A DNA stretch of 64,000 bases from Symbiodinium natans (taxonomy: Eukaryota > Sar > Dinophyceae > Suessiales > Symbiodiniaceae): NCBI GenBank assembly GCA_905221605.1, contig CAJNDS010000262.1:92001-156000 (forward strand), given 5' to 3'. Every line of letters starts with the position of its first letter. Position 1 is the first letter of the stretch. Below, piece after piece: positions 14,166 through 46,671 of the stretch. Both the position numbers and the translations under genes were made by a program. The notes under the pieces were generated by a model that saw only the letters and a list, made by a program, of their open reading frames with translations, was not told the origin of the DNA and ran no database searches.

Positions 14166-14754
14166 TGTGAAAAGCAGAGCTTGCGCAGCAGTCTCTTTTT
14201 CACTTTGCACTTGAGCCAAACACCAAAGTGTTCAGCAAGCTTCAGTTCTTGCAGCAAGCTCTCTCCAAGAGCTAAGGGCTCCAAAAAGCTACGAATTCCA
14301 TCTCAACTTTGTTCTACAAAGGAGGTAAAGCAAAAGAGCAATGCAACTGCTTTGGTCTACACCTCGGGGACTTCAGGTCACTTCCGAACAGCAAAACAGC
14401 GAAGCTTCAGAGTCCACTCTGCACTCCTACTCCCATCCTACACGTCCAACGGCAACGAACGAAGTGGCGGGGACACGGAGTGAGTTGCAACAAGACAGAA
14501 CCTCAGAGTTCTGACACGCACTTCTTCACTACTGCTCTCAAGCAGTTTCAAGTGCTTCAAAACTCATCCTAGGCCATGCCAACAAGACAAGAACATGCCA
14601 AAGTCAAGCAAGACATGCCACACACGCTTAAGGGCTTTGGGACAAACCAAACATGCTCACGCCAAGTCATGCAGCAGAAAAACTCTCATGCTTCTCTCTG
14701 TATGGTCAAACACCACATGGCACCAACTGGGCAAACACTACAGGTGAATTTTAC
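14166..14754 (-). repeat. Copia 3' LTR, distal 589 bp
   Basis: It is colinear with the 5' LTR at 54,664-55,255, from base 4 of the LTR to its CACA end. I noticed one substitution between them (near 14,618 versus 55,122). The missing first bases TGT, with a duplicate of the target sequence, lie 31.9 kb away at 46,655-46,671. The near identity of the LTRs means the copia insertion is young and the nested insertions are younger still. Confidence 0.9.
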
Positions 14755-15020
14755 TTCAGCAAGCGCGAGAGCGTTACCCAGTGGGTGTCCTGCATGCAAA
14801 ACGAATTCGCCCGGAGCCCCTTTGGGGCGAGACACAGTCTCTCGGGCAGTCGGTCACCCTGCTACGGCAAAAACCACAGCTTACAAGCTGGGAATGTGGT
14901 GCACCCACAGGCCATCTACAGGGAACTATGTTACAGCTACTCATCAGGAAGAGGTTGCGACCGCAGCCCTAAGGCTGGGAAAGGATGCCCCCAGAGAAGC
15001 AGCCCAGATTCCACAGCCTC

Positions 15021-16402
15021 CTAGGCCGGGGTAGTGCATAGCCAGCGAACTTCTTCCCCCAAAGGTCCAAGGGTGTTGCAGATCTGGTCAAAACACGCTT
15101 GAGGTGGACCCCTGGAAACTTGCCGAAAGTAGCCCACATCATTTGGGCAGTATTTGGCAACTACCCTCCAAAAGCCAGTCCATTCCGGCCTCCCTTGGGA
15201 GGGGCCCCAGTTGTTGGCATCGATGAAGGCCGGAAGGGGAACCACCCTCGTGCCCAGCGGCCTGTGGCTCAGGTTTGAAATGCCCACATCCTTGGCATCA
15301 ACCCCACAGGCATACAAGTGCAACAAGGTGGCCAACGTGGCCAGGAGGTAGGAGTGAACACGGAGACCATTGGCAGCATTTTCCTGGAGCCACTCACGGG
15401 CCTGGCAGCGATGCTCTTGCACGTGGTACAGGAAACGATGCAGGCCCGCACCTGGCTCTCCTTCAGGCCCTAGTCCAATCCACATGGAGCCACTGGTAAG
15501 GATGGGAGCCATGAGCCGGGGAAAACGCCGCGCCATATCAATCTCCGGACCGTTTAAGGATGCATCATCCGTGAGCTTCAAGACCAACGCCTGAGACAGC
15601 TGGTAGCCTACACGGCTTTGTCCCCAGCCCAGGCGCGTGAGAACTCGGGCTTCCACCACGACCTGGCGAATCGGGTCCCACGTAAGTGTGAGATCTGGAG
15701 GGAGGAAGTGCCGAGGCGAGGTGGGCCGCTTGATGTAGCTTGCTGCTTCACCAGCCGCGTGCACACCCGGGGTAAAGTCCTGAGCTTCTCTACGCATGCG
15801 TTGCCGCCGGCCCAGGGGGACTCCTCAGATTCAGGGGCCGGGTCTGCAGGGGGCCCCCGGGCCCTGGACTCCGAGGGGGATCTAGGCCGTGCATGCTGGT
15901 TGGGAAGGTCACGGCTGGACGTAGCCCTTTCTGACCGCCTCCCAGGTGGAGGGGAACGGGTTGAATCACGCGGAACCGAACGCAAATCCACACCGGACCC
16001 TGCTACCTGAGGCCGCCTCCTTCGCGGAGGGGTGGGAGGGGTAGGGCTTCTGTCCACTGAGCGCAGGACCAAACGAGGAGAAGGAGAGCGCCGACGGTCG
16101 CGCCGAGGAGCCGGAGGGGGGGGAGGCGGCCAAGCCTTCGCCGCCGGTTGGGCCGATGAGCTGGAACCTTTAGGTGCCGCCTCCTCAGGGAGGGGTGCCC
16201 CTTCCTGCTGGTCGTCTCCTACAGGAAGGCCCTGGTCTATGCGTTGTTGCCTGCGGATGTGGGGTGGAGGTCGTCGCTTCGAATGCTGGAGGGTCGCCGT
16301 AGAGCGCCACGACTTCCCCTCTGCCATTCGTTGGCGCTGCTCGCGCCAGAAGGGGCCACGACCCCTGCCCTGCGAGCCCCCCATCACTGCTTCTTGAAGC
16401 AA
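15021..16402 (-). pseudogene. E0 ORF3: kinase-fold-like protein, frameshifted
   Basis: Two overlapping frames (16,402 to 15,608 and 15,797 to 15,021) make up one gene. The first codes for a Pro/Arg/Ser-rich basic region. The second codes for a domain with a Gly-rich loop-like LGWGQSRVGYQL, VLKL, a catalytic-loop-like GVDAKDVGISN and FIDANNW, in the order of a protein kinase fold. The same elements occur in ORF3 of L1-L3. The frame change falls near 15,800-15,815, where a C5 run suggests a one-base indel. Whether it ever phosphorylated anything is unknown: the Lys of the usual DxKxxN loop is replaced by Gly. Confidence 0.55.
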
Positions 16403-16589
16403 AGGGTCTGCTGACCAGAGGGAAGCTCTTTCTTCTTTTTGCCACGGCTGGCCGGCTTCGGGGCAGGCTCCCTTGCAAGCCCGGCTACGCGTGCACTTGC
16501 CCCAGGAAGGGAAACCACTTCCTTTGTTTTGCCAGACCCGACCTCAGACACGTGCGACTCTGCAGCCTTAGGAAGGGAAGCCGCTTCCT

Positions 16590-19574
16590 TCAGAGTTGAA
16601 GAAGAACCTGGAGAGTCCGGCCGGAAACAGAGGCCTGGGCATGAAAGGACAGGGTTTGGTTGTTGTGAAGTTTTTTACAGGGTTTCTGGAGACCTAAACA
16701 AGGCTGAGAGTGGCCTGGAAGGAGGGTAAGATGGCACCCGGAGCACAGCCATCTACGTCCCTCATTTTCGAGCCGGTGCGTCGGGTGAAGGGTAGGCCAG
16801 AACTGGGGGCCATTGCGGGGCATGTCAATGCACGGCTGAGCAAGCAAACGTTCTAGCCTATCCATCTCATGAACCTGCTGGAGGTAAAGCTTACACTTCA
16901 CACAAGTGATTGACAGATTATTTGTTTTTAACCCCCCTACTTGCCAGACATGGCCACCTACTGCTTCCGGGACGTCCACTTTCGCCAACAAAAGCTGGCG
17001 CTTGTTAGGCCCTTTGGGTGGTTGGGGTTCCTGCCTTTGGCTTCGGGGGACAAAATCATCTTTTGAGGCATGTTTCAAAACAACCACAGCTCGCGACGCC
17101 AGGTAATCACAGATCCTGGTTACGAGCCTATCCAGGTCCTGGACTTTCCGCCCTGCTACAGGCGGTATGGTGGCAGCTCGTTTGCCTGCCAACTCGTCGG
17201 CGCACTGGTTGGCCTGGTGTCTCCAAAGCTGGGAAAAGCCAAACCTAATTTCGAACTCACGGCTAGTTAGGTGGGATTTTACCCAAGTGGGCCTTATCCT
17301 ACCACGGTCCTCCCAGACCGGGCCCCAAAAAGCCGGGGTTGTTTTTTGAAAGGATTTTTTGGTGAGGGTCCTTAGGGCTGGTTTACAGTCCCCCGTGAGG
17401 TCAACCTGACCAAGGGTGTGTTTAATCGTCTGCACAATAGCATAAGATTCACCGTGCGCGACGCTTGTGCCGGGGGGGGTGAGGCCGGACATGGTCCCTA
17501 ACTCCTGAAACAGACCATCTTGAACCCGCCCCACGACGACAGACCAGCTCACTCTTCGCAGTCGCGGATCCTTGGTGAACTTTCCCCCTGACGCGTCCGT
17601 AGCAACCACCAACCCGTCTGCTACTACCTGGGAGGACGTGAGAAACACGCCTGTCTTGACCACTTCTAGGTCCCCCGAGGGAGCGACTGGGAGGTATTTA
17701 AGGGGAAGCATACCCCGAAGCCACAGGCAGTCATCAGGGAAACGGCGCTTCTCCGCCAGAACGTACCCCGGTAACCGCATGCCACCAGGGAAGGAAGGGC
17801 ACTCATACATGAGGTGACGCAGGGTGGCCCCGGGATCGCCACAAAACTTACAGATATCCTTGCCACCATTGCCATTATGAAGAATGGACCCTTGGAAAAC
17901 AGCCCGATAGGCGTACCGGGTTGTTTTGGTGCGCACTGACTTGAGCAGGCGACGCGGGACCGTCCAATCGACCCCGCCCGCAGCACCCGCTGCCGACGAG
18001 GCCGATCCGATGCGACGAGACCTCTGGGTCTTGATGATGTCCGTGAGGAAAGACGAGGTTTGACAGACAACCGAAACCTCAGAGGGCTTGATTTCGAGAA
18101 CACGCTCCTCAAAAACCCAGCGGGAAGGATCGTGGCCGTCGACCTGGAGGTCGCGGAGGTATTGACACATGGCAGAGATGGGTCCAGTGACCACGGGCCA
18201 ACCGTGCTTCGCAGCCTCCAGCCGCTTCCAGACCACCCGCCAAGTGTCCTTTACTGCCTCCCATCCCATGCGGTTACATCTGGCCATCATCCTGAAAAGA
18301 CTTTCCACGTGCTGGGTTACCACAATAAGGTAGGGATCCTGAACCTCATGGGCCGTCATATCTAGGATGGTATCCGTGGAACCATATCGGCTCCTGCCTG
18401 CGTGTCGGGCTACCGCTGCGCGCATGGTTTTCATATGTTTAGGGGCAACCCCTTGTGCTTCATGGCCATAAAGACCCGAGGTGACCACACTAGAACGGTG
18501 CAACCGTAGCCGGACGCGGCGTGCCGGGATACGAAGCTTGCCCAACTTCAGGTTACGAAGGCTACCTACCCGAAAGCGTTTCTGGGCAGTAGTAGTCCTG
18601 CGCCGGCGGCCACTGCCACTATCAAGGCCTAAATCCTTGACCACGTCGACTATGTCAGGGTCCCCCGGCCGCAGCAGCTGTCGCAGCGCCGCGGCCGAGC
18701 GGGGTGTCCCGGCCACAAATTTTGTTTTCTCTTGGCTGAGGACGAGACCTTCAGCCTGAAGACTGGCCTTGAGCACTCGAAAGGCTTCATATGCCGCGCC
18801 CGCGGCTATATCTGGCGAGGCATGGAGGGAGTCTGCAGAGACATCATCCAACCATACGTCGCAATGATGCAAGCCTGTGACTCGTTTCAGTCTGTGTAAG
18901 GGTTCAGACATGGTGAGCTTGGCCACGGTGGGGGCGTACGGGCATCCCTGGATCATGCCCCGGCCTGGGAAAATAGTGGGGCTGGGCTGGGATTCACCCA
19001 CCACCGTGCGGCCTCCTTGGTAGAGGCGAAGGGAAAGGCACAGGGCCAAGGCTGGGAAAGACAACCGCAAGCCTTGTTCGCAAAGCCGCTGCCAAGAGAC
19101 GCTGTCGTAAAACCCATTAATGTCAACAAACAACGAGACAGTGTGCAAACCCTTGACTCTGGCGGATTCTTTGGAGCATTTCCTGGCCAGGGCAACGTCC
19201 AACGAGGTTCGACCTGGAATCGCCGAGTCAAAAGGATGATCCGGGATGTAGGAGTCCAGCCACTGGCTGACCAAGAACCGCCGAGTCTTACACCAAAGCC
19301 GCCACAGGACCGATGTAAGACCGATAGGTCTTTCCTTCAAGGCACTCTTGGCCAGAAGAACAATCTGGACCTGGGAGACTTGGAGGGGAATGGCAAGGTC
19401 CTCCTCCATTTTGTTGAAGACGTTGGCTAGGACGGCATACGCGTCCCGAGGCAGGTCTCGAAGATCATTGAAATCCCAGCCGTCCGGGCCTCCTTTTTTG
19501 GGATTCCTGGCGGCACATATCTTAGCGACAGAGCTAGCAGAATGCTTGGGCAGGGAACGGACCTGCTCCCGGGC
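16590..19574 (-). CDS. E0 ORF2, partial: reverse transcriptase and RNase H
   Basis: The frame is open from the truncated 5' end to the stop at 16,590, about 994 residues. It shows RT motifs GGPDGWDF, LFVDINGFYD (motif A), QGCPYAP (motif B) and VWLDDVS (motif C, WLDD in place of YADD). A CCHC-type zinc finger (CKFCGD ... HLMYEC) follows. The RNase H domain has TDASGG, GESYAI, GDCKPAL, a His in WVKSH and ADELAG. C-terminal CxxC pairs (CVKC, CSGC) end the protein. The endonuclease domain is missing because of the 5' truncation, so the frame alone could not support target-primed insertion. Confidence 0.88.
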   Translation of the reverse strand, partial: AREQVRSLPKHSASSVAKICAARNPKKGGPDGWDFNDLRDLPRDAYAVLANVFNKMEEDLAIPLQVSQVQIVLLAKSALKERPIGLTSVLWRLWCKTRRFLVSQWLDSYIPDHPFDSAIPGRTSLDVALARKCSKESARVKGLHTVSLFVDINGFYDSVSWQRLCEQGLRLSFPALALCLSLRLYQGGRTVVGESQPSPTIFPGRGMIQGCPYAPTVAKLTMSEPLHRLKRVTGLHHCDVWLDDVSADSLHASPDIAAGAAYEAFRVLKASLQAEGLVLSQEKTKFVAGTPRSAAALRQLLRPGDPDIVDVVKDLGLDSGSGRRRRTTTAQKRFRVGSLRNLKLGKLRIPARRVRLRLHRSSVVTSGLYGHEAQGVAPKHMKTMRAAVARHAGRSRYGSTDTILDMTAHEVQDPYLIVVTQHVESLFRMMARCNRMGWEAVKDTWRVVWKRLEAAKHGWPVVTGPISAMCQYLRDLQVDGHDPSRWVFEERVLEIKPSEVSVVCQTSSFLTDIIKTQRSRRIGSASSAAGAAGGVDWTVPRRLLKSVRTKTTRYAYRAVFQGSILHNGNGGKDICKFCGDPGATLRHLMYECPSFPGGMRLPGYVLAEKRRFPDDCLWLRGMLPLKYLPVAPSGDLEVVKTGVFLTSSQVVADGLVVATDASGGKFTKDPRLRRVSWSVVVGRVQDGLFQELGTMSGLTPPGTSVAHGESYAIVQTIKHTLGQVDLTGDCKPALRTLTKKSFQKTTPAFWGPVWEDRGRIRPTWVKSHLTSREFEIRFGFSQLWRHQANQCADELAGKRAATIPPVAGRKVQDLDRLVTRICDYLASRAVVVLKHASKDDFVPRSQRQEPQPPKGPNKRQLLLAKVDVPEAVGGHVWQVGGLKTNNLSITCVKCKLYLQQVHEMDRLERLLAQPCIDMPRNGPQFWPTLHPTHRLENEGRRWLCSGCHLTLLPGHSQPCLGLQKPCKKLHNNQTLSFHAQASVSGRTLQVLLQL

Positions 19575-19588
19575 CAGGTGAATTTTAC
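19575..19588. repeat. Nested target-site copy between L1 and E0
   Basis: CAGGTGAATTTTAC on the plus strand, identical to bases 4-17 of the copia LTR. On the minus strand it follows the L1 3' end (GCAGAC) and precedes the truncated E0 start. Confidence 0.85.
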
Positions 19589-19685
19589 GTCTGCACGCTG
19601 CTTGGCGTAGCCACCCGAAGGGGCTGGGGTATCAGGGTGAAACTTACAAACTCTGCACAGTGAGACTACCGGTACTAGCCCTCAC

Positions 19686-19850
19686 TTCCCTCAGACATTT
19701 GTCGAGGCCGAAATCCATTCCCTCAGACCGTGGTCGAGGCCGAAATTCCCTCAGGTCATGCCGAGGCCGAACTTCCCTCTCTTGCACCCCTCAGACCGAA
19801 GTCGAGGCCGAAACTCCTCAGGCAGCACGCCGAGGCGGTATTTTGATTCG
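19686..19850 (+). repeat. Hairpin-motif cluster in the L1 3' UTR
   Basis: Five consecutive copies of CCTCAGx(N)xCGAGGCCGAA lie within 165 bp (about 19,688, 19,712, 19,749, 19,790 and 19,817). Equivalent clusters occur at 27,940-28,090 (L2) and 38,460-38,610 (L3). Each copy can pair CCTC with GAGG. Confidence 0.75.
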
Positions 19851-19904
19851 GTTTGTTGGTGCCTCTCTGACCACTATCCATGTTTCTTGTCTGTTCTGCG
19901 CTGC

Positions 19905-20725
19905 TCACTCATCAGCTTCGTCATACGGCATGCCCAACGTGATTTTCTGGATCTCTGTTGCCGGAACCGAAAGTAGGGTTCCATCCCATCCTCGTTTTGC
20001 AATCCCGGCATCCAGCAGGTGCTGGGCAAATGGCCCGACATTGCCTACGCACGCCATCCAAAGCGCGCTGGCCTTGCCGTCGTACGTTCTGACCAATCCA
20101 CGTATGGTTGCCAGTAGCTCCTCATCATATTTCTCCAGGAGGCGTACAAGGCCGCATGATATCTTGTATCTCTCCTCCTGCAGCGTCGTCCACTCCGCCG
20201 TGTCAAAGAACACTGCCCGTGGTAGCGATCCTGACATTGGGTCGCGCCCAACGTTGCTCACCGTGATATCCGATAGAGCAACTCCTTGCATGGTCAGCCA
20301 TGACGTTATAGCCACCATGCACCAAAAGGTGCACAGGCTTGACTTGCCCCATGGCTTCCTTTTTCTCCTTTCCCTCAGCTTCCTGCGAGGCCATATTGTG
20401 GGCACCTGGCCCTTCCGCCAGCGTGACTGTACGAGGCTGGCTTGCCTCTTGCTCTTCATTGACACCCTCAGCTTGATGCGAGGCCGTACTGTCTTCTCCT
20501 CTCTCCCGTAGGCGTACCGGACCCACCGGAGATTCCGAAGCTCTCTCCTCTTCACTATCCCAAGGCTGCTCCGGGTGTCTGGCCTGTCGAAGCGGGGAAC
20601 GTTCACGGGGCTGATCCTTCTGCTTGTTCTTGCTTTTGCCCTTGCCTTTGTCCGGCCGATTCCTTAACCAGGATGGCAGTCGACCCTTGTCTTCTCATCG
20701 TAGCATCCGTCTTCCATTGCCTCAT
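19905..20725 (-). pseudogene. L1 ORF3: kinase-fold-like protein, internally deleted
   Basis: It is homologous to the intact 408-residue ORF3 of L2. Two lesions are visible against L2 and L3: loss of two bases near 20,689 in the Gly/Asp stretch of the N-terminal region, and a deletion of about 400 bp at about 20,320 that removes the Gly-rich loop and VMKL part. What remains codes for the basic N-terminal region and the C-terminal part with GVALSDITVSN and FFDTAEW in different frames. Confidence 0.8.
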
Positions 20726-20727
20726 TG

Positions 20728-20990
20728 CTACAGGCCCGCCTTGTGCAATTTAGAAGCCCACAGTTGCTTCCGCTCTTCACTGAGGTAGGTCTCCGCTTGG
20801 TAGACCCAATCGTTCCTTGTGCTGCAGCGAGCGAGACTGCGACACGCCGCTTTTAGGTGAGTGTAGTTTGCCCTCTTGGGGTCTGTTTCCAGGAACTGCT
20901 CCTCCAAAATTGGTTTCCACGAATCCTCCAATTTGATTCGCACCTGGAGGGTCAATTTCTCCGGCTGCTCGTCCGGCCGGTCTTTTGAGG
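20728..20990 (-). CDS. Coding-like segment present only in L1, before ORF3
   Basis: The minus-strand frame ends with a peptide containing KLTLQVRIKLEDSW, ETDPKRANYTHLKAA and TEYLSEERK-like sequence (YLSEERKQLWASK) and stops two codons before the ORF3 start. L2 and L3 lack this roughly 250-bp segment. It may be an ancestral extra ORF or the original N-terminal part of ORF3. The function is not recognised. Confidence 0.35.
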
Positions 20991-21205
20991 ATGAGGACGC
21001 CGTTGTTTCACCCTCAGCTCTGCGAGGCCGAGGCCTCCTCTCTTTACCCTCAGCGATGTCGCAAGCACGCGGCACCGCGAGGCCGAATTGCACTCCCTCA
21101 GCAAAGCGAGGCCGTAAACACCAATCGCAATTCCCCGTTGCGAGGCCCTCACCCTCAGCTACGAGGCCGAAAAACCCTGTCTCCTTGCACCAAACGGCTG
21201 CGGAA

Positions 21206-24200
21206 TTACTGCGTTCCCTCAGCTTGGCGAGGCCTAACAAACAATGACATCTTCTGCTGTGCGCTGGCTTGGGGCTTAGCTTTGGCGTGTTTCCCACCAA
21301 ACTGAACGCGAGGCTGTTGAAACTGGACGCTGCTCATACTTCCACCATTGACAAGGGTTTGCGCTTGGGTAGCCAGCTTGCCTTGAGAAGTCCGCGATTT
21401 GCACTCACCCGCCAGGCTTTTATTGCACTTCTGGCTGACCGGTGCATGTGTTCTGTCACACTTTGTGCAAACCCAACGGATTCCCAAATTCACCATATTA
21501 TGGGAGGGGTGGATACCCCACTCTTCACGCACTCGCGCCTCCGGCTGGTTGACGCAGTACTGCTCCAAGACCACCTCCAAGTTCGTGAGGGTTTGTTGTA
21601 CATACAACCCGCACAGTTGACATTTCAGTGTTAAATTCCGGGGGTGTTCGCTGCCCTTCTCCCATTGATGCCCGCGCTCCGGGTTTTTAAGCAACTGCCA
21701 AAGCCGCTGGCGTTTGTTGAGTTTGGCGCTGCCCTGCTCTTTTTTGCATCCCTCAGCTTTCTGCGAGGCTTCCATCTTCTCTTTGTAATGCGCATGGTCC
21801 AGGATGAAGGGGAAGTCTTCTTCTTTGCGCTTCCGCAATATGTGGGCTGCGCGTGCACCGTACGCCAGGGAAAGTGTGCGCACCACATTGTCCAATTCTT
21901 TGACACGCCTCTTGTGCGCTGGGCTGTAAGCAGCCGCCGCCACTGCTCCACATACTTTGTCTGCCATGTCATTCGCTGCACGTCGCCACAACGTACCCGG
22001 CCCCATCTTCGCCAGGAATTCCTCTTCAGTTTTGTGGGACGGGACCCATGTTGCCTTGATACGTTTCCTGTCATTCCACACTTTGCTCCATTCCAGGTCA
22101 TCCTCCGGCGGTTGTATTTTTTGTAGCACTTGGACTGCCGGCTTGCAATCCATAGTGACATCAATCAGATCCTCCGTGTGCTCCATTAGTCGGAAAAGTG
22201 CACGGCGCTCCATGTCCACCACCGGCTGCCACGGGTAGACCAGCTCTGTAATCCGTCCGACTTCCACCAGGACACCTTTTGTCCAGGACATAGCCACCAC
22301 TGCGAGGGCTGATGTTTGTACACGTGGGTCTATTCCTCCTGGACCTCCACTTGCGTCAGTGGCGAAGATCAAGCCTTCCGCTTCCACTTTTGCATCAGCT
22401 GCGAAGCATCCTTGGTAGCGCAGACCTAAAAGGTGTTCCGGCGGCTTCGGGTGCCACACCGCCGGCTTTGGCAGGAGTGCCCTTGTCCACAGACACTCCC
22501 ATGGGTATTTGTGACGCAAGTATTCCTGGAGCTTGGGTTCTTTGAACCCTTGTTCACGCCAGTAAGGACATTCCTTGAGGACATGCTCCAGAGTTGCTGG
22601 CATTTGGCACTTCTTGCACCATCCTGGCTTGGACTCCGTGATGACGCCCGCGTGCCACACTGACTTTATACCTTCCATAAGGCCTGGGCTTAGGCCTCCC
22701 AGCTTCGTCAGCTTGTGATGCGGCGTCCAATCCAGCCCCTCTTGGGCACCAGCGCCACCTGCCTGTCGCGCTATTGCAGCCCGTTTCTGTTCCTCCAGGA
22801 ATCCCTCAAGCCATTTGTAGGCGAGGCTACCCATGCGTGGCTGGGTCCAATCAACGTTGAGGACACTTCCTTTCTTCCATTTGCCTGGGTCACTGGCATC
22901 CACCTTCAGATCCATTAAGTACGCCATGGTTGCTGCCATCGGTCCCGTGACCAGTGGCCAGTGGTGTTTGGCCGCACTCAACCTCTTCCAAGTGGTTTTC
23001 CAGGCCAAGTCAAAGTGGGCTTTTCCGCCACCAATCCATGCACGGAAAACTTTGGCCACCACCTTGAAATGCTGCTTGTGGATTGTGCGCTTTGGATCCT
23101 GGCATTTCTTGGCTCCCATGTCCAAGATGGTTTCCAAACTCCCAAGCTTGTATTTACCCAGGTGTTTTCCTACCACTGTTCGGAGCCATTTCATTCTTTT
23201 GGGTGATACCCCCACAGAGGGGTGCCCCCACAAAGCAACGGATGTGATCGCTGCCTTGACCACGCGGAGTTTAGTGCTGGGCGGCGGCCCCAGCCTGGAC
23301 AGTTTGCTATGTCTCGCATGGGCTTTCTTGGCCCGCGTTGCCGACGTCACCAAGCGACGCTTTCGCCCCCCTGTACTGTCGACGCCCAAGTCACGCATCA
23401 CGTCGTACACCTGTGGCTCATGAGGCAACAGGAGTTCTCGCAGGTGCTTGCTCGCCTGGGTACTGCTGGCCACAAACCCTGTCTTCTTGGATGAAATCGT
23501 GAAACCATTAGCGTCCATCCCGTCCTTTAAGCTGCGGTAGACTCGTATCGCACTATCCGCCACTTGTTTAAAGGACTTATGCTGGATGTCAATTGAGACA
23601 TCATCCAACCAACAATCCACGTTTGCCACATCTCGTCGCCTTTGGATCTTATCTATCACCGGGTGCAATGCCACCTTTGCCAACGATGGCGCAGCTGGAC
23701 ACCCTGCTTGCACGCCATTCGTAGCTCTGATGCCTGCCGACAGCACCCCATCCGCCACCAAATATCTGGCACCCATGTACACTTCCAGTGCCATCTTCAG
23801 GATTAGCGGTGGATATTGCAGGGCCGTTGCTGCCGTGATCAATTGCTGAAATTGGATGGTATCGAAAAAGGACTCGAGGTCCACAAAGAGTGACACCACA
23901 TGCACACCATTTGTCTTCGCCACCTCATTTCGCAGTAGTCTGCCTACGGCCACGTCCAAGCAGCAACTGCCTGGGACTGCCTTGTCGTACGTGGCAGTTT
24001 GGGCATAGCCTGCCTGCCAAGTACTTACCAAATCCCATCGCAAACGGACCCAGGTCCTGTACAGGATGTGTAGCAAGGCGATTGGTCTTTCCCGGGTCAG
24101 ATTCTTCGGCAGCATTGCTATAAGGGAGACTGTCATTTGCTGCGGCCATGCTGCCTTGGCCTCACATTCATGGTAGAAGGACACAACGGCTTCAACTGCT

Positions 24201-36218: not shown

Positions 36219-36232
36219 CAGGTGAATTTTAC
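36219..36232. repeat. Nested target-site copy between N and L2
   Basis: CAGGTGAATTTTAC on the plus strand, between the 3' end of element N and the L2 5' end. Confidence 0.85.
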
Positions 36233-38339
36233 GTCTGCACGCTGCGAGGCGTAGCCACCCGAAGGGGCCGTTGGTCAAGGTGAAACTAAACTAAAAATTA
36301 CCTCGCTTGAGGTGTTGCGTTCTCAGCTAGGCCCTCTCTCAGCTGCAACCCTCAGCACTCGCGAGGCCGAACTTTGCCCTCCGCATGCATTGCTGTTGAG
36401 GCACTTGTTGTGGCATCAGCCTCCGTAAGTTTGGCAATCCCCACTCAGCACTGGATGTTCTGTTCGAGGCATATTTCCTCAGCGCATGCGAGGCCGCAAA
36501 GTGAAACACGTGAGGTATGAAAAACTGCTACTCCAGGTTCGTCCGCAGCTCCGGCTTTCTCGCACTTACTAACCGTGCCTTGCAGCCTCCCCCAAAGTAG
36601 CGTCACCCTGGCTTTCTCGCTCTTACTCACCAGTTGACCAATAATGCATCTCACGCGGTTGCTTCATGGTAAAACTGCAGCTCGAGGTCCCGGCGTTCTC
36701 GCTCTTACTAACCCGGACCGACACTGCAGAGAAGCATTGACTGTTGTTCCCTCAGCGGAGGCGAGGCCGAACAACCATTCCGCTGCATCAGCGCAGCCAG
36801 GCCCTCAGCTCCTCACTGAGCCAGGGCTCTCTTTAGACAGAGTTCCCTTGCTGGCAAGCCCTCTATCTCTATGTGACCCCCGCGGTGCCACGTATAAGCA
36901 GCTGCACCGCGTGTCTTAGGACCACAGTTTTCATTCGGATTTGTTGTTGTAGGCCTTCCAGTGCTTGAGGCCGAATCCAAACACCACATCTCACGTCACA
37001 AGGCTGGCAATTTGGCTCCAACATCTGAAGATAGTAACACATACTCTGCGTGGCGTCCGCGTGAGCTAGCCTGTCCTTTCTTTAGGAGTTCGGCTCCTTT
37101 CATCGCTTGTCTTACCACAGGTCTCTTTCGGTGGCCCGTACTCAGCAGCCAGCACATGTACCATCCTCAGACGCCAGAGCCGCCTTGCCCCAGCAAGTGC
37201 CCATACAAACCACTCACCAGATAGTGAGAGCCAACATCTTCAAACAACCTCCAGCGGCCGTGCCGCGAGGACCTAAACATCTGCAAGGTTCCGCCTTGTC
37301 TGTGTGCACGGACAGACCCCAGCCCTTGCAGGAGACGTGGATGTAAACAAAAGCAGGCCTGCCATGTCCAGCAGGCTGATTACCATTGGTTGCCTTCAGA
37401 TGGGAAAAGCGCGAAGATCGGGTAACCTCCATCTGAATCCTTTCCGGCCAATACCAACCCTTACAAACCCTCAGCACGGAGCGAGGCCGAAGGAGGCTTC
37501 TTGGACTATTGGTTTTCCGGGGAGCAGCCACCACCAGCTGCTCTTCAACTTGCACTGCGCCGCACCACAGTCCTACTGCAAGTTCCTTGGCAACGGTTTC
37601 TCAGTAGCACCAGTCAATGAGCTTTACGACACTGATGCCTCTGGTTATTTATGTCCAGGCAGATCCACCAGGGTTGGGCCAAATCTTTTCTACCTGATTC
37701 TACCTGCGAAGAAAATCCTGTTGTGCTCAGCTTGCAGATCCCCGAAAACCTGCAAGCTTGGGCTCGAGCACACCGCAATTGTTCGGGACACTCCTGTCGC
37801 CACTGCAAGGATGCCTCTTGCAGTGCGACGTTGGCCTGCACTGTCTGCAGCGTGCCTGGCCGTTTCCCCCCGTGTTTCGGTCTCACCTTCGTTTTCCACA
37901 CAAGTGAGCGAGGAACCCAAACTCACCTTCAGCACAGCCCTCAATCCAAATGAGGGTCGGTGGGTTTTGCTCACCCAGAGACAGCAGGAATCTCTGGTGA
38001 GCAACAGGCTTGCGTCACCCCTCAAGCAATGCGAGGCTGCAACTCTCACTGTGACCCAGAGCAGACTGTAGGCCACAAGGTTCCCTCAGCAACGCGAGGA
38101 CGAAAAGCTTCCCTCTAGCGAAGCGAGGTCGAAAACTGTGCACTCACGCCCTTCGTCGACGGCAGCAGTTGGCGGGCCGCCGCTCTATGACAGCTTAGCC
38201 GGTCAGCCGGCCTACGAGCAAACACAGTTTTGCCAGGCCTCAAAACGGAACCTACCCTTAAGCCCCAGGGCCAGCCACAACGGCACTAAAGACGCTCTCT
38301 ACCTGAGCACCCCACCGGGGTTGAGCCGAAACCTTGAGC
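36233..38339 (-). mobile_element. Element N: non-autonomous LINE derivative (about 2.1 kb)
   Basis: Its 5' end (38,339 side) shares about 55 bp with L1-L3, starting TGGCTCAAGGTTTCGGC and running through CCCCGGTGGGG. Its last 35 bp match the L1-L3 3' end including CCCTTCGGG and GCAGAC. The interior is unrelated apart from about seven hairpin motifs (near 36,355, 36,480, 36,752, 37,468, 38,022, 38,082 and 38,113). No ORF on the element strand resembles a retrotransposon protein, so it probably used L-type proteins in trans. Plus-strand ORFs here are not supported. Confidence 0.75.
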
Positions 38340-38353
38340 CAGGCGAATTTTAC
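38340..38353. repeat. Nested target-site copy between L3 and N, one mismatch
   Basis: CAGGCGAATTTTAC on the plus strand, with C in place of T at the fifth position compared with the other copies. Confidence 0.8.
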
Positions 38354-38675
38354 GTCTGCACGCTGCGAGGCGTAGCCACCCGAAGGGGCTGAGGTTAGTG
38401 GGTGAAACATACAAGCTACAAACTCTGCACAGTGAGACTACCGGTACTAGCCCTCACTTTCCTCAGACATTTGTCGAGGCCGAAATCCATTCCCTCAGAC
38501 CGTGGTCGAGGCCGAAATTCCCTCAGGTCATGCCGAGCCGAACTTCCCTCTCTTGCACCCCTCAGACCGAAGTCGAGGCCGAAACTCCTCAGGCAGCACG
38601 CCGAGGCGGTATTTTGATTCGGTTTGTTGGTGCCTCTCTGACCACTATCCATGTTTCTTGTCTGTTCTGCGCTGC

Positions 38676-39902
38676 TCACTCATCAGCTTCGTCACACGGC
38701 ATGCCCAACGTGATTTTCTGGATCTCTGTTGCCGGAACCGAATGTAGGGTTCCATCCCATCCTCGTTTTGCAATTCCGGCATCCAGCAGGTGCTGGGCAA
38801 ATGGCCCGACATTGCCTACGCACGCCATCCAAAGCGCGCTGGCCTTGCCGTCGTACGTTCTGACCAATCCACGTATGGTTGCCAGTAGCTCCTCATCATA
38901 TTTCTCCAGGAGGCGTACGAGGCCGCATGATATCTTGTATCTCTCCTCCTGCAGCGTCGTCCACTCCGCCGTGTCAAAGAACATTGCCCGTGGTAGCGAT
39001 CCTGACATTGGGTCGCGCCCAACGTTGCTCACCGTGATATCCGATAGAGCAACTCCTTGCATGGTCAGCCATGACGTTATAGCCACCAGGTAAAACAGGG
39101 ACTGTCTGAGGACCCCGGCTTCATGGCGATGTTCCTGCCACCATGTGTTGAACAGCTCTGCCCTGCGGATGATACTTCCATAGAAGTAGTGGTGGCAGTA
39201 ACCCTCCACCGCTTCGTCGAAAAGGACTCCAATCCATCCTGCCCACAGGGTCCTGGTGACCAGGGTGGGGAATTGTTCCCCATACCCTGCTTCGTTGCCA
39301 AAGCTCTGGGGTTCCATCGCTAGTTTCATGACCCATAGCCGATCCAGAGCATATCCTCGTCGAGTGCGCCCCGCACCTATAAAGGGAAGCACCCTAGGCT
39401 GTAAGCTTTGCCCTGTCGTTGGGTTGCGGACCAATTGGACCTCCCCAAGCCAATGGAGCGCTGTCCTTGGCCTTTGCTGGTTCTGCAATTTATGCACCAA
39501 AAGGTGCACAGGCTTGACTTGCCCCATGGCTTTCTTTTTCTCCTTTCCCTCAGCTTCCTGCGAGGCCATATTGTGGGCACCTGGCCCTTCCGCCAGCGTG
39601 ACTGTACGAGGCTGGCTTGCCTCTTGCTCTTCATCGACACCCTCAGCTTGAGGCGAGGCCGTACTGTCTTCTCCTCTCTCCCGTAGGCGTACCGGACCCA
39701 CCGGAGATTCCGAAGCTCTCTCCTCTTCACTATCCCAAGGCTGCTCCGGGTGTCTGGCCTGTCGAAGCGGGGAACGTTCACGGGGCTGATCCTTCTGCTT
39801 GTTCTTGCTTTTGCCCTTGCCTTTGTCCGGCCGATTCCTTAACCAGGATGGCAGTCGGGACCCTTGTCTTCTCATCGTAGCATCCGTCTTCCATTGCCTC
39901 AT
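38676..39902 (-). CDS. L3 ORF3: kinase-fold-like protein, intact
   Basis: 408 residues from MRQWK, colinear with L2 ORF3; the frame stays open 15 codons further upstream. It keeps IGAGRTRRGYAL, VMKL, GVALSDITVSN and FFDTAEW. Changes against L2 are scattered and mostly conservative (for example ISCGLVRLL versus LSGGLVRLL), as expected if the protein is under constraint, though this was judged by eye. Confidence 0.6.
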   Translation of the reverse strand: MRQWKTDATMRRQGSRLPSWLRNRPDKGKGKSKNKQKDQPRERSPLRQARHPEQPWDSEEERASESPVGPVRLRERGEDSTASPQAEGVDEEQEASQPRTVTLAEGPGAHNMASQEAEGKEKKKAMGQVKPVHLLVHKLQNQQRPRTALHWLGEVQLVRNPTTGQSLQPRVLPFIGAGRTRRGYALDRLWVMKLAMEPQSFGNEAGYGEQFPTLVTRTLWAGWIGVLFDEAVEGYCHHYFYGSIIRRAELFNTWWQEHRHEAGVLRQSLFYLVAITSWLTMQGVALSDITVSNVGRDPMSGSLPRAMFFDTAEWTTLQEERYKISCGLVRLLEKYDEELLATIRGLVRTYDGKASALWMACVGNVGPFAQHLLDAGIAKRGWDGTLHSVPATEIQKITLGMPCDEADE

Positions 39903-40077
39903 TGCTACAGGCCCGCCTTGTCCGACGATGTCGCAAGCACGCGGCACCGCGAGGCCGAATTACACACCCTCAGCAAAGCGAGGCCGTAAACACCAATCGC
40001 AAGTCCCCGTTGCGAGGCCCTCACCCTCAGCTACGAGGCCGAAAAAACCCTGCTCCTTGCACCAAACGGCTGCGGAA

Positions 40078-43000
40078 TTACTGCGTTCCCTCAGCTTGGC
40101 GAGGCCTAACAAACAATGACATCTTCTGCTGTGCGCTGGCTTGGGGCTTAGCTTTGGCGTGTTTCCCACCAAACTGAACGCGAGGCTGCTGAAACTGGAC
40201 GTTGCTCATACTTCCACCATTGACAAGGGTTTGCGCTTGGGTAGCCAGCTTGCCTTGAGAAGTCCGCGATTTGCACTCACCCGCCAGGCTTTTATTGCAC
40301 TTCTGGCTGACCGGTGCATGTGTTCTGTCACACTTTGTGCAAACCCAACGGATTCCCAAATTCACCATATTATGGGAGGGGTGGATACCCCACTCTTCAC
40401 GCACTCGCGCCTCCGGCTGGTTGACGCAGTGCTGCTCCAAGACCACCTCCAAGTTCGTGAGGGTTTGTTGTACATACAACCCGCACAGTTGACATTTCAG
40501 TGTTAAATTCCGGGGGTGTTCGCTGCCTTTCTCCCATTGATGCCCGCGCTCCGGGTTTTTAAGCAACTGCCAAAGCCGCTGGCGTTTGTTGAGTTTGGCG
40601 CTGCCCTGCTCTTTTTTGCATCCCTCAGCTTTCTGCGAGGCTTCCATCTTCTCTTTGTAGTGCGCATGGTCCAGGATGAAGGGGAAGTCTTCTTCTTTGC
40701 GCTTCCGCAATATGTGGGCTGCGCGTGCACCGTACGCCAGGGAAAGTGTGCGCACCACATTGTCCAATTCTTTGACACGCCTCTTGTGCGCTGGGCTGTA
40801 AGCAGCCGCCGCCACTGCTCCACATACTTTGTCTGCCATGTCATTCGCTGCACGTCGCCACAACGTACCCGGCCCCATCTTCGCCAGGAATTCCTCTTCA
40901 GTTTTGTGGGACGGGACCCATGTTGCCTTGATACGTTTCCTGCCATTCCACACTTTGCTCCATTCCAGGTCATCCTCCGGCGGTTGTGTTTTTTGTAGCA
41001 CTTGGACTGCCGGCTTGCAATCCATAGTGACATCAATCAGATCCTCCGTGTGCTCCATTAGTCGGAAAAGTGCACGACGCTCCATGTCCACCACCGGCTG
41101 CCACGGGTAGACCAGCTCTGTAATCCGTCCGACTTCCACCAGGACACCTTTTGTCCAGGACATAGCCACCACTGCAAGGGCTGATGTTTGTACACGTGGG
41201 TCTATTCCTCCTGGACCTCCACTTGCGTCAGTGGCGAAGATCAAGCCTTCCGCTTCCACTTTTGCATCAGCTGCGAAGCATCCTTGGTATCGCAGACCTA
41301 AAAGGTGTTCCGGCGGCTTCGGGTGCCACACCGCCGGCTTTGGCAGGAGTGCCCTTGTCCACAAACACTCCCATGGGTATTTGTGACGCAAGTATTCCTG
41401 GAGCTTGGGTTCTTTGAACCCTTGTTCACGCCAGTAAGGACATTCCTTGAGGACATGCTCCAGAGTTGCTGGCATTTGGCACTTCTTGCACCATCCTGGC
41501 TTGGTCTCCGTGATGACGCCCGCGTGCCACACTGACTTTATACCTTCCATAAGGCCTGGGCTTAGGCCTCCCAGCTTCGTCAGCTTGTGATGCGGCGTCC
41601 AATCCAGCCCCTCTTGGGCACCATCGCCACCTGCCTGTCGCGCTATTGCAGCCCGTTTTTGTTCCTCAGGAATCCCTCAAGCCATTTGTAGGCGAGGCTA
41701 CCCATGCGTGGCTGGGTCCAATCAACGTTGAGGACACTTCCTCTCTTCCATTTGCCTGGGTCACTGGCATCCACCTTCAGATCCATTAAGTACGCCATGG
41801 TTGCTGCCATCGGCCCCGTGACCAGTGGCCAGTGGTGTTTGGCCGCACTCAACCTCTTCCAAGTGGTTTTCCAGGCCAAGTCAAAGTGGGCTTTTCCGCC
41901 ACCAATCCATGCACGGAAAACCTTGGCCACCACCTTGAAATGCTGCTTGTGGATTGTGCGCTTTGGATCCTGGCATTTCTTGGCTCCCATGTCCAAGATG
42001 GTTTCCAAACTCCCAAGCTTGTATTTACCCAGGTGTTTTCCTACCACTGTTCGGCGCCATTTCATTCTTTTAGGTGATACCCCCACAGAGGGGTGCCCCC
42101 ACAAAGCAACGGATGTGATCGCTGCCTTGACCACGCGGAGTTTAGTGCTGGGCGGCGGCCCCAGCCTGGACAGTTTGCTATGTCTCGCATGGGCTTTCTT
42201 GGCCCGCGTTGCCGACGTAACCAAGCGACGCTTTCGCCCCCCTGTACTGTCGACGCCCAAGTCACGCATCACGTCGTACACCTGTGGCTCATGAGGCAAC
42301 AGGAGTTCTCGCAGGTGCTTGCTCGCCTGGGTACTGCTGGCCACAAACCCTGTCTTCTTGGATGAAATCGTGAAACCATTAGCGTCCATCCCGTCCTTTA
42401 AGCTGCGGTAGACTCGTATCGCACTATCCGCCACTTGTTTAAAGGACTTATGCTGGATGTCAATTGAGACATCATCCAACCAACAATCCACGTTTGCCAC
42501 ATCTCGTCGCCTTTGGATCTTATCTATCACCGGGTGCAATGCCACCTTTGCCAACGATGGCGCCGCTGGGCAACCCGCTTGCACGCCATTCGTAGCTCTG
42601 ATGCCTGCCGACAGCACCCCATCCGCCACCAAATATCTGGCACCCATGTACACTTCCAGTGCCATCTTCAGGATTAGCGGTGGATATTGCAGGGCCGTTG
42701 CTGCCGTGATCAATTGCTGAAATTGGATGGTATCGAAAAAGGACTCGAGGTCCACAAAGAGTGACACCACATGCACACCATTTGTCTTCGCCACCTCATT
42801 TCGCAGTAGTCTGCCTACGGCCACGTCCAAGCAGCAACTGCCTGGGACTGCCTTGTCGTACGTGGCAGTTTGGGCATAGCCTGCCTGCCAAGTACTTACC
42901 AAATCCCATCGCAAACGGACCCAGGTCCTGTACAGGATGTGTAGCAAGGCGATTGGTCTTTCCCGGGTCAGATTCTTCGGCAGCATTGCTATAAGGGAGA

Positions 43001-45428
43001 CTGTCATTTGCTGCGGCCATGCTGCCTTGGCCTCACATTCATGGTAGAAGGACACAACGGCTTCAACTGCTTTGTCGTCCATGGCCTGCAAATGGTCAAT
43101 CCTCCAGCCATCCGGCCCCGGGCTCTTTAGTGCCAGTTTTTTGATCCTTGCCTTGACCTCGACAGGGTTCAGCGGCTCCACGCTGGCCGCTTGTTTTTTG
43201 GCTGCATCCTCAAGCTCCGTCATGAGCGAGGCCGATTTTGCCAACGGCTGGCCCGTCGTCCACACTGCCGCCCAGTGGTCTCGGCGAATGTGTGGCCGTT
43301 CCAGCATGTCATATTCCATGTAGGGTCTTTGTACCACTTGTTCTTCTTTTCGCAAGGCATTGTATAATGGTCGCATGCCCTTTTCCATGGCCTTGCTGAG
43401 CCATTGCTTGTACTGGTGGGCTGTCTCTTCCATATCCGCCTTTCTCGCGTAGCATTGCTGTTCGTCGATGCGCTTCAGAACAAGTCTAGCGTCCGTACCC
43501 CGGCCCAGGATATTCTCGAGCATATCCTCCTGGTTCTGCGCATCACCCTCGTAATACTCGCCGAGCCTGCGTTGGACCAGACGCGCCACCGGATGCGCAT
43601 CGCCATGATGTCTGCCTTGTTTGACCCATTGTTGGACCCTGTTCCAAAAGGCCGCCCTCTTGCCTGTCCAGACAACGTTCTCCGGGTTGTTGACCACCAA
43701 CTTCTTCCGGACAATCTCGGATTTAACACCCATGCCTTCGATTCGGCCTGTGATCGACCTCTCCACCCCGGCACTCAGGTGAGCGAATGTCTCACTGAGC
43801 TCATCTTCCATCTTGGGTTCATCCAGGATGTTGATGCTCTGTGTGTTTTGAACTGGTTCGTATTCCACCGTCTCCGTCACCAATGCTCCCGCCTTCTTCA
43901 TCTGGGGAACATCAGGGCTACTGCTCGGTTGGGCTACCCTCCAATGCATCGCAGCATGAGGCCGAAAAGGGGTTTCCCAATCCGTTTTCACTTGCAGGAT
44001 GGGCACCAAGCATTTCGCAACCAGCCCGTAATCAATTTCGTCCGATCCTTGGGCCGTTGGTTCCCCCACTCCTACAAATGCACCACCAACTTCTGTCGCC
44101 ATAGTTGTGCCCCTCATGGTATCCTGGGCTTCATTCCAATCTCCCAGCACCATATATGGCACTTTGCAGCCCTTGAGAAAGGCTATCAGTCTCGCCAGTA
44201 CTTGGATATTGTTTGGAGCCTGGAATCCGACCCCGCTCTCCAAATACAGACTGACGATGATCAAATCCCATCCTTTGTTTCTCATGGCACATGCCAGGAA
44301 GCCCGCTGGTCCTGACCCATACTCGGTAAGGTATCGCAGATTCCTATGTCGGGGTGCCACCACTGCCAGGCCTCCTTGTACACCCTTAATTTTTGTACTG
44401 CCTGGCATGCCAATGAAGGTGTATCCCATATCTTGGCAATGGCTCATGGCTTGCTGGATACCCTCCGTCTTGAGATGGGTTTCCTGCAGCACCACCAGGT
44501 CCGGTCCTAGTTCGTGTATCCATGCCGCTATGGGTTTCCTCCAGCTGGTGATGTTAGCCGCTGTGATTTTGATACATTCGGCCTTATCATCTTGGCGATA
44601 CCCACTTGCCACATCTGCCAAGATCCATTTGGCATATTGTGCGTCATGCTCCACAAGGGAACGAAGCACTTCGTGGCATGCTCGTTGTTGTAGCGGGTTG
44701 AGTTCCTGCTCTTCCAGCTTCTCAATGGCTTCGAGTGCAGCAGCCTCACTGGAAGCATCATATCTACCCACCACTTGGCATAGCGTTTGCCACTCCTGTG
44801 GCAGATCTTTTGGTGGTTCCGTGGGTTTTGCTTTCCGCTTCTTGGGCTTTTGTTTTCCTCTGCGACCCTCAGCACACGGCGAGGCCGAGAATCGTGTTTC
44901 CTCAGCTTCCTGCGAGGCCTTCATGTTCTCCCCTCTAACCGCTGCATGGTCTCTCATCTGTATTTGGCTTCCCTCAGCTTCTCGCGAGGCCGAATGCTCA
45001 CATTCCTCTTCGATGTCTTCCCTTGTTAAATGGAAGTATCTGGGCCCTGTGACCGCCCAACTGCTGTCCACAGCTCGGACAGGCTCAGGACCCCTCGTAA
45101 CTGGACTCCAGCTCTCTTGGCTGTCTTCCACTGTGCTGTTTGTACTAGGCACATGGGTACTAGACACAGCTTGACTGCCTTCCCCATGCGCCTGTGGCCA
45201 TACAATGTCCCCGTGACACTGCTTCTCCCCATTGAGACTCCTGAGACTGTCTTGCTTGCTTCTTTTGGCTGTTCGGACCAGGAGCGACTCTGAGGTGTCG
45301 ACCCCTCCACTCCTGTCCCAGCCTGAGGCTTCATTCGCCATGGGCACGCGCCGGCGAGCGTTCGCGCCCCGTCGGCGTTGCCCTGACTGACACATCTCGA
45401 GACATGCGCATCGGCCCATACATGCCAA
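40078..45428 (-). pseudogene. L3 ORF2: endonuclease-RT-RNase H, one-base frameshift
   Basis: Two frames (45,428 to 41,643 and 41,550 to 40,078) together equal L1 ORF2. The break lies at about 41,664-41,669, where L3 has TTCCTCAGG against TTCCTCCAGG in L1 and L2: one C is lost, just after the RT and thumb region and before the zinc finger. Endonuclease and RT motifs (GDWNE, SDEIDYG, FVDLESFFD, CWLDDVS) are intact in the first part; the zinc finger, RNase H and C-terminal zinc motifs are in the second. The true start is unclear because the MKARQ region of L1 is deleted here. Confidence 0.88.
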
Positions 45429-46302
45429 GTTCGGTTGGCAGGCCTGGCTCTCGTGGTCCCAAGACTCCAGTCCAGTCTGTCTCCACGACCTTGACTGCCA
45501 TCCTTGTTTTGAGCGCTTCCGCTTGCTCGTCGGTCAGGATGATCCCTTCCTTTTCCAGGTAGGACGCGACGTCCTTGTACGGCGAATCCTCCTCATCTTT
45601 CACGCAGGCTTGTACCTTCCTCTGTGCTTCCGCAACCTCAAGCTCCGTGGTCTGGATGGCCTGGCTGACTTGCGCAAGCTGCTTCATGGCCTGCTCGAAC
45701 TCGCTCTTGATCCTTTCCGTTTTGTCTTGAAGCCGGACCTTCTTCTCAATGAGTGATCTCAGCTTGTTTGTCGTCCTTCTGTATGTACCAACATGGCGGC
45801 TGAGCTCCTGCTTTGGTGTCTCATCCTCAGGCTTGTAATCCCCTGGCGGGGGAATACCCGCTGCTCTGAGCAGCCTTTGCACTGCGGGCTCAGCTCCCTG
45901 CCACACCGTTTCAATGGCCTCGTGGTACTCCTTTTGCGTCATGCTTTCGGTTTGCGATCCACTGCCTGGTAGTCCCGGGGGCCAATTGGGCCCCGGCTCC
46001 ATCGTCTGCGGCTTCCATCCTGCTTCTTCGATGGCCTTCTTTGCCTCCATAGAAAGCGTACCCCACGCCTTCGTGAGGGCTTGGTCGGCCATCCCTTCTT
46101 TGTTCTTGGCCTGTCTTGTCCACCATGTAGCGTCGTCCTTTGGCCATTGCCACTTCTTACGCTGGCTTGACCATGCTCGCTCACGGTAGGTGGCCTTTTT
46201 CCACGCCTTTCCGCAATGCCAGCAGTTCGGGTTGTAGTACAAGTCTTCATTCCAGACCCAACCCACCTCACAGTGGGCACACACAGTACAATGCTTCCCC
46301 AT
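45331..46302 (-). CDS. L3 ORF1: zinc-motif and coiled-coil protein
   Basis: 323 residues from MGKHC, with the complete Cys set CTVC, CEVGW and CWHC and the same coiled coil as L1 and L2. Its end overlaps the upstream open part of the ORF2 frame. Confidence 0.8.
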   Translation of the reverse strand: MGKHCTVCAHCEVGWVWNEDLYYNPNCWHCGKAWKKATYRERAWSSQRKKWQWPKDDATWWTRQAKNKEGMADQALTKAWGTLSMEAKKAIEEAGWKPQTMEPGPNWPPGLPGSGSQTESMTQKEYHEAIETVWQGAEPAVQRLLRAAGIPPPGDYKPEDETPKQELSRHVGTYRRTTNKLRSLIEKKVRLQDKTERIKSEFEQAMKQLAQVSQAIQTTELEVAEAQRKVQACVKDEEDSPYKDVASYLEKEGIILTDEQAEALKTRMAVKVVETDWTGVLGPREPGLPTELGMYGPMRMSRDVSVRATPTGRERSPARAHGE

Positions 46303-46654
46303 GACTGCTGCAGCCTGATGCCAGTCCCACCAGCACCTCAGCAATGCGAGGCCTAAGATCCCCTCAACCGTAGTGAGGCCGAACTTTATGTGTCCTCAGC
46401 CGGAGCGAGGCCGAAACTAGCCCCTCCCTCTGCCGAAGCGAGGCCGAAAACACACCCTCTGCCGATGCGAGGCCAAAAAGTTCCCTCAGCACTTGGCGAG
46501 GCCGTACTCAGGCAGCTATGTTGCTGGCAGCCGACTACCAAGCAAACACAGTGGTTTCGGTTTGAGTCCTGTTGGAGCCCACCCTTAGGTACAGTCTCCA
46601 GGCAACAGCACTCCCTACCTGAGCACCCCACCGGGGTTGAGCCGAAACTTGAGC

Positions 46655-46671
46655 CAGGTGAATTTTACACA
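46655..46671 (-). repeat. Proximal start of the copia 3' LTR with target-site copy
   Basis: The minus strand reads TGTGTAAAATTCACC from 46,671, identical to the first 15 bases of the 5' LTR; the following TG is shared with the L3 start. The polypurine tract GAGGGGG (46,672-46,678) directly precedes it, as expected for a 3' LTR. L3 begins at TGGCTCAAG in place of the LTR continuation TGTAGTG. Confidence 0.88.

Follow-up and report, generated by a model that had tools for sequence, protein, structure and literature searches.

Why should five retroelements lie one behind another, in a single orientation, at the same 14-bp site of a copia element in the dinoflagellate Symbiodinium natans? The stretch that raises this question, the window, comprises 64,000 nucleotides (positions 92001-156000 of contig C262; the genome is 759 Mb). 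Our analysis shows that the observation is more general than a preliminary description of the window had stated, and that these are target-specific long interspersed nuclear elements (LINEs) with nested growth and, in addition, a leader-tagged 5′ end. It is very probable that a group of LINEs (two families that we call L and E0, and those to which at least three further types of 3′ end belong), together with non-autonomous partners sharing the tails of L, inserts site-specifically at the junction between the polypurine tract and the 3′ long terminal repeat (LTR) of at least two families of LTR retrotransposon, including the copia of the window, copying trans-spliced RNA and with the landing pad renewed on the copia side.

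The window contains one copia element on its minus strand. Its LTRs of 592 bp are 99.5% identical and have TGTG..CACA ends (the TG..CA type), its open reading frame (ORF) contains RVT_2 (PF07727; 92.8 bits, with a cut-off of 31.6), and a 5-bp duplication, GTTGC, lies at both outer ends of the element, closing around the 32-kb nest. The host is thus a Ty1/copia LTR retrotransposon, an assignment confined to the window element and not extended to the LTR2 and third families discussed below. The nest occupies nucleotides 4-17 of the 3′ LTR. From the copia side the inserts run L3, N, L2, L1 and E0 in a single orientation, each bounded by the 14-bp site (Table 1). The seven positions at which the 14-mer had been described all carry it, one with a single change, where 0.37 matches are expected by chance with up to two mismatches. 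Six of the seven stand exactly at the junctions of nested elements, and the seventh is the unoccupied copy in the 5′ LTR. Chance as the origin of these junctions is rejected on this expectation and on the 1% background of random 24-mers given below.

The outer copies had been taken as the two halves of a split 3′ LTR. The split itself is borne out by the GTTGC duplication and the identity of the LTRs; the upstream 'half' is no more than the 17 bp of TGT + GTAAAATTCACCTG, right after the tract and before the first insert, while the remaining LTR sequence runs from 14,754 to 14,166. In the same way the term 'five LINEs' holds for L1, L2, L3 and the 5′-truncated E0, and fails for N. This insert of 2.1 kb has no ORF in its own sense longer than 128 amino acids, the longest being an antisense ORF of 255, and it is taken as a non-autonomous element with the 5′ and 3′ tails of L.

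ORF2 is still open over 1760 codons in L1 and L2 and frameshifted in L3. Over residues 240-1100, the part searched, one LINE ORF2 of the window matches an S. natans protein at 100%. The ORF2 of E0 is 34% identical to that of L, so two LINE families are present at one site and the preference is common to both, as had been proposed. The reverse transcriptase domain PF00078 is matched at 57.7 bits in L2 and 48.4 bits in E0 (cut-off 29.6). Among solved structures, the matches of L2 comprise, besides LINE-1 ORF2 proteins, a single entry for an RNA-directed DNA polymerase (best E 1e-6), and E0 matches one LINE-1 (E 0.25). Target-site duplication, variable 5′ truncation and a constant 3′ end, the hallmarks of LINEs, are all found. 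Judged from sequence, L and E0 can therefore be classed as non-LTR retrotransposons with a LINE-type reverse transcriptase. Both families have a third ORF after ORF2 (window 28151-29449 and 15021-15824, minus strand), 26% identical between L and E0. It has no Pfam match up to E 10; its motifs look protein-kinase-like by eye, a reading for which the Pfam search gave nothing.

The site is also adjoined by the 3′ end of E0 and by at least three further 3′-end types (C, D/E and F, with D and E pooled in the tally); the reverse transcriptases examined are those of L and E0. Elements of types A, D and E have a TTTCAC motif at a distance of 52-54 nt from their 3′ terminus; this distance is 68 nt in one type-C copy and 43 nt in the L011 end, and the 3′ ends of E0, F and another type-C copy lack the motif. 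A shared 3′ hairpin was considered and is disfavoured on single-sequence folds, which differ between the families.

How general is the site preference in the genome? The exact 14-mer occurs 187 times and its reversed control not at all. Of the first 100 occurrences 99 were read, and 97 lie in an LTR/LINE context; the other two (L039 and L065) look unrelated. Since this sample was picked by the site, a second was picked by the 3′ end of the element. The type-A 3′ end, GCTACGCNNNGCAGCGTGCAGA, is common to L, N (N1) and a 2.8-kb element, N2, and occurs 473 times; the first 100, spread over 24 contigs, were all read. The following flank is GTAAAATTCACC in 36, GAAAAATTCACC in 6, GAAAGTTCCTG in 45 and within two edits in 9, with 4 others. 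An LTR-start sequence (site 1, site 2 or a near variant) thus adjoins 96 of 100 type-A 3′ ends across contigs, against 202 of 20,000 random 24-mers from large loci that pass the same flank test (1%), and the proposed site preference is supported by this genome-wide check. Adjacent elements less than 12 kb apart lie on the same strand in 71 of 74 pairs. Most of the copies read are at one defined target, the first element of an array contacting the tract directly and the others lying within the stack. At L015 a single insert is flanked by both duplicates, and 5′-truncated inserts sit behind intact sites. The idea that the 14-mer is the LINE's own 3′ terminus is rejected; site 2 and other sequences can replace it, and empty LTRs carry it. 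At L024:621-745 at least 98 A residues in a row separate an N2 3′ end from the N2 that comes next, which points either to poly(A) insertion off target or to an effect of assembly.

What, then, is the target? LTR1 arrays start ..ATGAGGGGG|TGT + GTAAAATTCACCTG, and site-2 arrays ..CAAGCGGGGG|TGT + GAAAGTTCCTGTC (GATAGTTCCTGTC in C292) in 7 of 7 arrays examined for their start. One N2 copy in a probable third family stands at ..AGAGGGGG|TGT + GAAAATGTTCGACC, the latter on both sides as a 14-bp duplication, the insert again lying behind GGGGGTGT. The duplication varies while the tract and TGT are constant, which argues that the target is the junction of tract and 3′ LTR (pattern GGGGG|TGT; the duplex of tract and LTR start is written GGGGGTGTGTAAAATTCACCTG) and that the 14 bp are the stagger.

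Occupancy follows the tract. Exact patterns were counted in LTR2, so that inserts not beginning TGGCTCAAG right after the site fall in neither class. Of 82 LTR2 starts with the tract, 43 are directly occupied by an element with a leader start, 32 are empty and 7 are neither, whereas among starts without the exact tract none is occupied and 52 are empty (Fisher 1.7e-13). A subsample of 20 of the 82 was read, giving 11 empty and 9 occupied, one of these by a 5′-truncated insert. LTR2 ends in TTTTCACA, as does LTR1, and its starts are often paired about 9.0 kb apart. At 17 of the 43 occupied sites there is an empty LTR start 8.6-9.05 kb upstream on the same strand, taken on its position as the 5′ LTR of the same element. 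In LTR1, which has 30 tract-bearing starts genome-wide, the 14-mer is occupied in 10 of 11 cases behind the tract and in 0 of 6 behind host flank, that is, in 5′ LTRs (p 0.0006); a rougher classifier had counted 5 of these 6 empty starts. The LINE endonuclease had been said to prefer the 14-mer, its duplication recreating the site as a self-renewing pad. The preference and the duplication stand. The 14-mer as the recognized sequence does not, and the renewal would apply to the tract-side copy and not to every copy.

The 5′ ends carry a second signature, which the preliminary description had not mentioned. At the start of full-length inserts stands (T)TGGCTCAAG, with which the dinoflagellate spliced leader, CCGTAGCCATTTTGGCTCAAG (PMC8045281), ends. 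The ends seen are GGCTCAAG, TTGGCTCAAG and, once, CCGTAGCCATTTGGCTCAAG (L103), which has 20 of the 21 letters of the leader and lacks a single T. Among site-1 junctions with GGCTCAAG within 22 nt, 57 of 74 read GTAAAATTCACC-T-GGCTCAAG (or the GAAAAATTCACC variant) and three others have TT; at site-2 junctions GGCTCAAG is preceded by TCT in 25 of 27 and by TCTT in 2. The 5′ end of these inserts thus corresponds to the 3′ part of the leader, as in retrocopies tagged with the dinoflagellate spliced leader (DinoSL), which suggests that the RNA copied, the element's own messenger, was trans-spliced. The usual joint probably forms at the T or TG common to target and leader. Just inside several 5′ ends (e.g. 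L030) lies a second, decayed leader-like stretch, as likewise reported for recycled dinoflagellate complementary DNAs (PMC6050394). Separately, sequences resembling spliced-leader remnants, TTTGGCTCAAG / ATTTTGGCTCAAG, occur within the LTRs of families 1 and 2, a few tens of bases upstream of their 3′ ends (window 54708-54718 and 14210-14220, minus strand; L148).

These elements can be assembled into a model. The LINE nuclease, presumably the source of the specificity, would first act on the antisense strand, with a nick in the LTR 3 nt from its boundary with the tract (C^ACACCCCC or like it), a position suggested by the junction sequences. The LTR strand ending ..TTTTAC (or ..CTTTC) would then serve as primer, the element RNA being copied from a fixed 3′ end. 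A later cut in the second strand, about 14 nt away, would leave the LTR bases that follow TGT in duplicate. On the copia side the tract would remain with one duplicate; as this tract-side copy would outlast each insertion, the pad would be renewed there, giving a stack of one orientation with the newest element nearest to copia. Growth at the tract side is suggested by the occupancy bias. The 5′ leader of the trans-spliced RNA would be copied as well, usually joining the target by microhomology at the T/TG before GGCTCAAG, and on one occasion it was copied nearly whole.

Several observations weigh against this model or limit it. The endonuclease-like PF03372 match, at 22.9 bits, is slightly under its cut-off of 24.5; the domain is annotated (precomputed) in P0002, a 99% identical protein, and in many relatives, and E0 is truncated before it. 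Four of the 100 type-A 3′ ends have other flanks, C379 being the probable third family, C280 an off-target copy, and C252 and C324 the remaining two. The 100 ends are not independent, coming from 24 contigs of which C262 and C316 resemble copies of one stretch. The empty fraction of tract-bearing LTR2 sites (32/82) indicates a preferred and not a saturated site, and exact patterns leave out truncated or mutated inserts and mutated tracts. All junction evidence comes from assembled contigs. Further, N2 units can be exactly periodic at 2854 bp (C334 and C374), and several arrays mix site types (for example L009, L025, C80 and C161); in L025 GAAAAATTCACC lies at the tract, followed by GTAAAATTCACC and then GAAAGTCCTGGTT. 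Serial insertion into a single LTR yields no such mixture; it takes recombination or gene conversion between arrays in addition to insertion. Read-through into the 3′ flank of the source copy was considered as another origin of mixed sites and is disfavoured, since where type-A 3′ ends lie directly before LTR1 or LTR2 the flank fits that LTR in 14 of 14 cases (3 site1-LTR1 and 11 site2-LTR2), which favours recombination.

Might one or a few insertions then have been enough, the arrays owing most of their growth to unequal crossing-over or gene conversion between tandem copies? The periodic N2 units, the mixed sites and the likeness of C262 and C316 all speak for this. We compared the window LINEs in 400-bp tiles with a pool of 20 loci (L009-L028). 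The array neighbour is the best match in 5 (L3), 1 (L2) and 2 (L1) of 20 tiles, as local duplication would have it, against 13, 15 and 16 of 20 with their best match outside the array, the remainder being ties or without a match. Part of the outside matches of L3 sit in another array on the same contig, and with other contigs only its tiles divide into 9 outside, 7 neighbour and 4 ties. The preliminary description had rejected crossing-over of one unit; this is supported for L2 and L1 and, less clearly, for L3. Best matches mostly outside the array argue that the window array is not mainly a local duplication, and serial insertion is supported as the main process there. Elsewhere, unlike families and 5′-truncated copies each sit behind an intact site, and the 43 directly occupied tract/LTR2 junctions are separate. 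Crossing-over as the principal route is therefore improbable.

A second alternative dispenses with a sequence-specific nuclease, the elements integrating into copia DNA during its replication, when the tract/LTR boundary is nicked. It would account for leader-start insertions 3 nt from that boundary and found only there. Yet the priming nick deduced from the junctions is on the strand opposite to the tract primer, and the off-target N2 copy in C280 (L156) inserted at GGTGTGT|GGATCC, beside GGTGTGTG, with a duplication of its own, GGATCCCAAG, and away from any LTR start as far as read. We consider this alternative quite unlikely. The DNA beside the off-target copy looks copia-polyprotein-like by eye, and 49 amino acids of it gave no Pfam match; in the copy itself GGCTCAAG is preceded by a long stretch of T, as though slippage had occurred on the TTTT of the leader. 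That the LINE nuclease recognizes the 14-mer itself, all copies being equal landing pads, agrees with its presence at every window junction and most LTR1-array junctions, and is very unlikely given that the 14-mer or its LTR2 counterpart is empty without the tract (6/6 and 52/52) and that other LTR families show duplications of other sequence. An assembly artefact, in which repeats of this highly repetitive region, known from assembly only, were collapsed or chained, is extremely unlikely, since these junctions are found again on many contigs, host flanks vary among the empty 5′ LTRs that were read, the copia duplication closes around the nest, and occupancy of LTR starts differs with and without the tract.

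Table 1. Features of the copia element and its nest, in window coordinates, listed from the 5′ end of the element.
Feature	Position	Strand
copia target-site duplication GTTGC, 5′ side	55256..55260	-	
copia 5′ LTR, 592 bp; unoccupied 14-mer at 55239-55252 (LTR nt 4-17)	54664..55255	-	
copia interior, ending in GGGGG; ORFs 53770-54657 and 47442-53921 (the latter with RVT_2)	46672..54663	-	
Polypurine tract, G run directly before the 3′ LTR; probably part of the LINE recognition site	46672..46676	-	
First 17 bp of 3′ LTR, TGT + 14-bp site (upstream target-site duplication)	46655..46671	-	
L3, LINE, 8301 bp; 5′ end GCTCAAG; ORF2 in two frames, 41643-45533 and 40078-41676	38354..46654	-	
14-bp site copy, one change	38340..38353	-	
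N, putative non-autonomous element, 2107 bp; 5′ and 3′ tails common to L	36233..38339	-	
14-bp site copy	36219..36232	-	
L2, LINE, 8390 bp; ORF1 34893-35948; ORF2 29610-34892 (endonuclease-like and reverse transcriptase, 1760 amino acids, open); ORF3 28151-29449	27829..36218	-	
14-bp site copy	27815..27828	-	
L1, LINE, 8226 bp; ORF1 26489-27544; ORF2 21206-26488 (1760 amino acids, open)	19589..27814	-	
14-bp site copy	19575..19588	-	
E0, 5′-truncated LINE of the other family, 4820 bp; ORF2 remnant with reverse transcriptase 16590-19574; ORF3 15021-15824	14755..19574	-	
14-bp site copy (downstream duplication), running on into LTR	14741..14754	-	
Remainder of copia 3′ LTR	14166..14740	-	
copia target-site duplication GTTGC, 3′ side	14161..14165	-	

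The window has other features besides. At 62531-64000 there is one further copia fragment, of the same family but in inverted orientation, its LTR match stopping early, with a 42-bp tandem repeat beside it (62175-62325). The copia ORF contains an in-frame 51/54-bp repeat (IRPLSLLPKPSGE; 51026-51757), and there is a 14-bp minisatellite at 6847-7314. On the minus strand, domains of nitrite/sulphite reductase and of pyridine nucleotide oxidoreductase are encoded by an ORF at 1281-3692, and a cytochrome b5 domain by another at 3908-5029, a combination (1281-5029) as in nitrate/nitrite assimilation. No transfer RNA (ARAGORN with the bacterial code) and no Rfam match were found across the window.

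The arrangement constitutes a natural replicated experiment on the choice of target by LINEs. Each host element offers two like LTR starts, of which one is used and the other is not seen to be used, and they differ by the flanking tract. One retroelement would thus parasitise a replication signal of another, at a site that is probably hard to mutate away. Inserts at the first bases of the 3′ LTR part most of that LTR from the body of copia, and so may limit it. A wider reading is possible, and is put forward tentatively. The LINE guild may be hyperparasites of LTR retrotransposons that read the tract/LTR boundary as a restored pad, one that the host element could not easily change because its own replication needs it; each cycle would renew the leader by trans-splicing, with the AG of the previous leader as the acceptor for the new one, and the same machinery would be the source of leader-tagged retrogenes in dinoflagellates. 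The type of element that mediates dinoflagellate retroposition is given as unknown in PMC6050394, with LTR elements favoured. Leader-tagged 5′ ends link a specific group of LINEs to the copying of trans-spliced messenger RNA, and so bear on the origin of the retrogenes discussed there.

How do these elements compare with known systems? A search of the open-licence PMC literature, by titles and the starts of abstracts, found no report of LINEs at a copia tract/LTR junction and none of dinoflagellate LINEs with leader 5′ ends. There is a likeness in growth to the Zepp and Zepp-like LINEs of green algae (PMC8226300), whose tandem clusters likewise arise by nested insertion, often with 5′ truncation. 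The target of Zepp is a Zepp copy already in place, whereas the S. natans LINEs target a copia tract/LTR junction that is kept at one end of the array. The array starts read lie at tract/LTR junctions (7 of 7 site-2 arrays and 10 LTR1 sites) and not inside another copy of the element; sites within an array may nevertheless be used again. Unlike Zepp, the S. natans stacks have a 14-bp duplication and several unlike families per stack.

The R1 and Tx1 clades contain target-specific LINEs with an apurinic-type (APE-like) nuclease and a reverse transcriptase. The present elements, which have a LINE-type reverse transcriptase and a putative APE-like nuclease, differ from those examples in their dinoflagellate host and in their target, the tract/3′-LTR junction of LTR retrotransposons. 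Like target-specific LINEs in general they use one position in a repeated sequence, and transposons are among the targets named in PMC4640811, which also lists spliced leader exons. LINEs that target such exons insert into the leader exon, whereas the LINEs here insert into copia and have the leader at the 5′ end of their RNA. CRE and SLACS are the names of such exon-targeting LINEs. In the DinoSL-tagged retrogenes (PMC6050394, PMC12014239), as here, 5′ leader remnants mark copies of trans-spliced messenger RNA; unlike those retrogenes, what is tagged in S. natans is a set of LINEs with their non-autonomous partners, and these copies stand at a fixed target.

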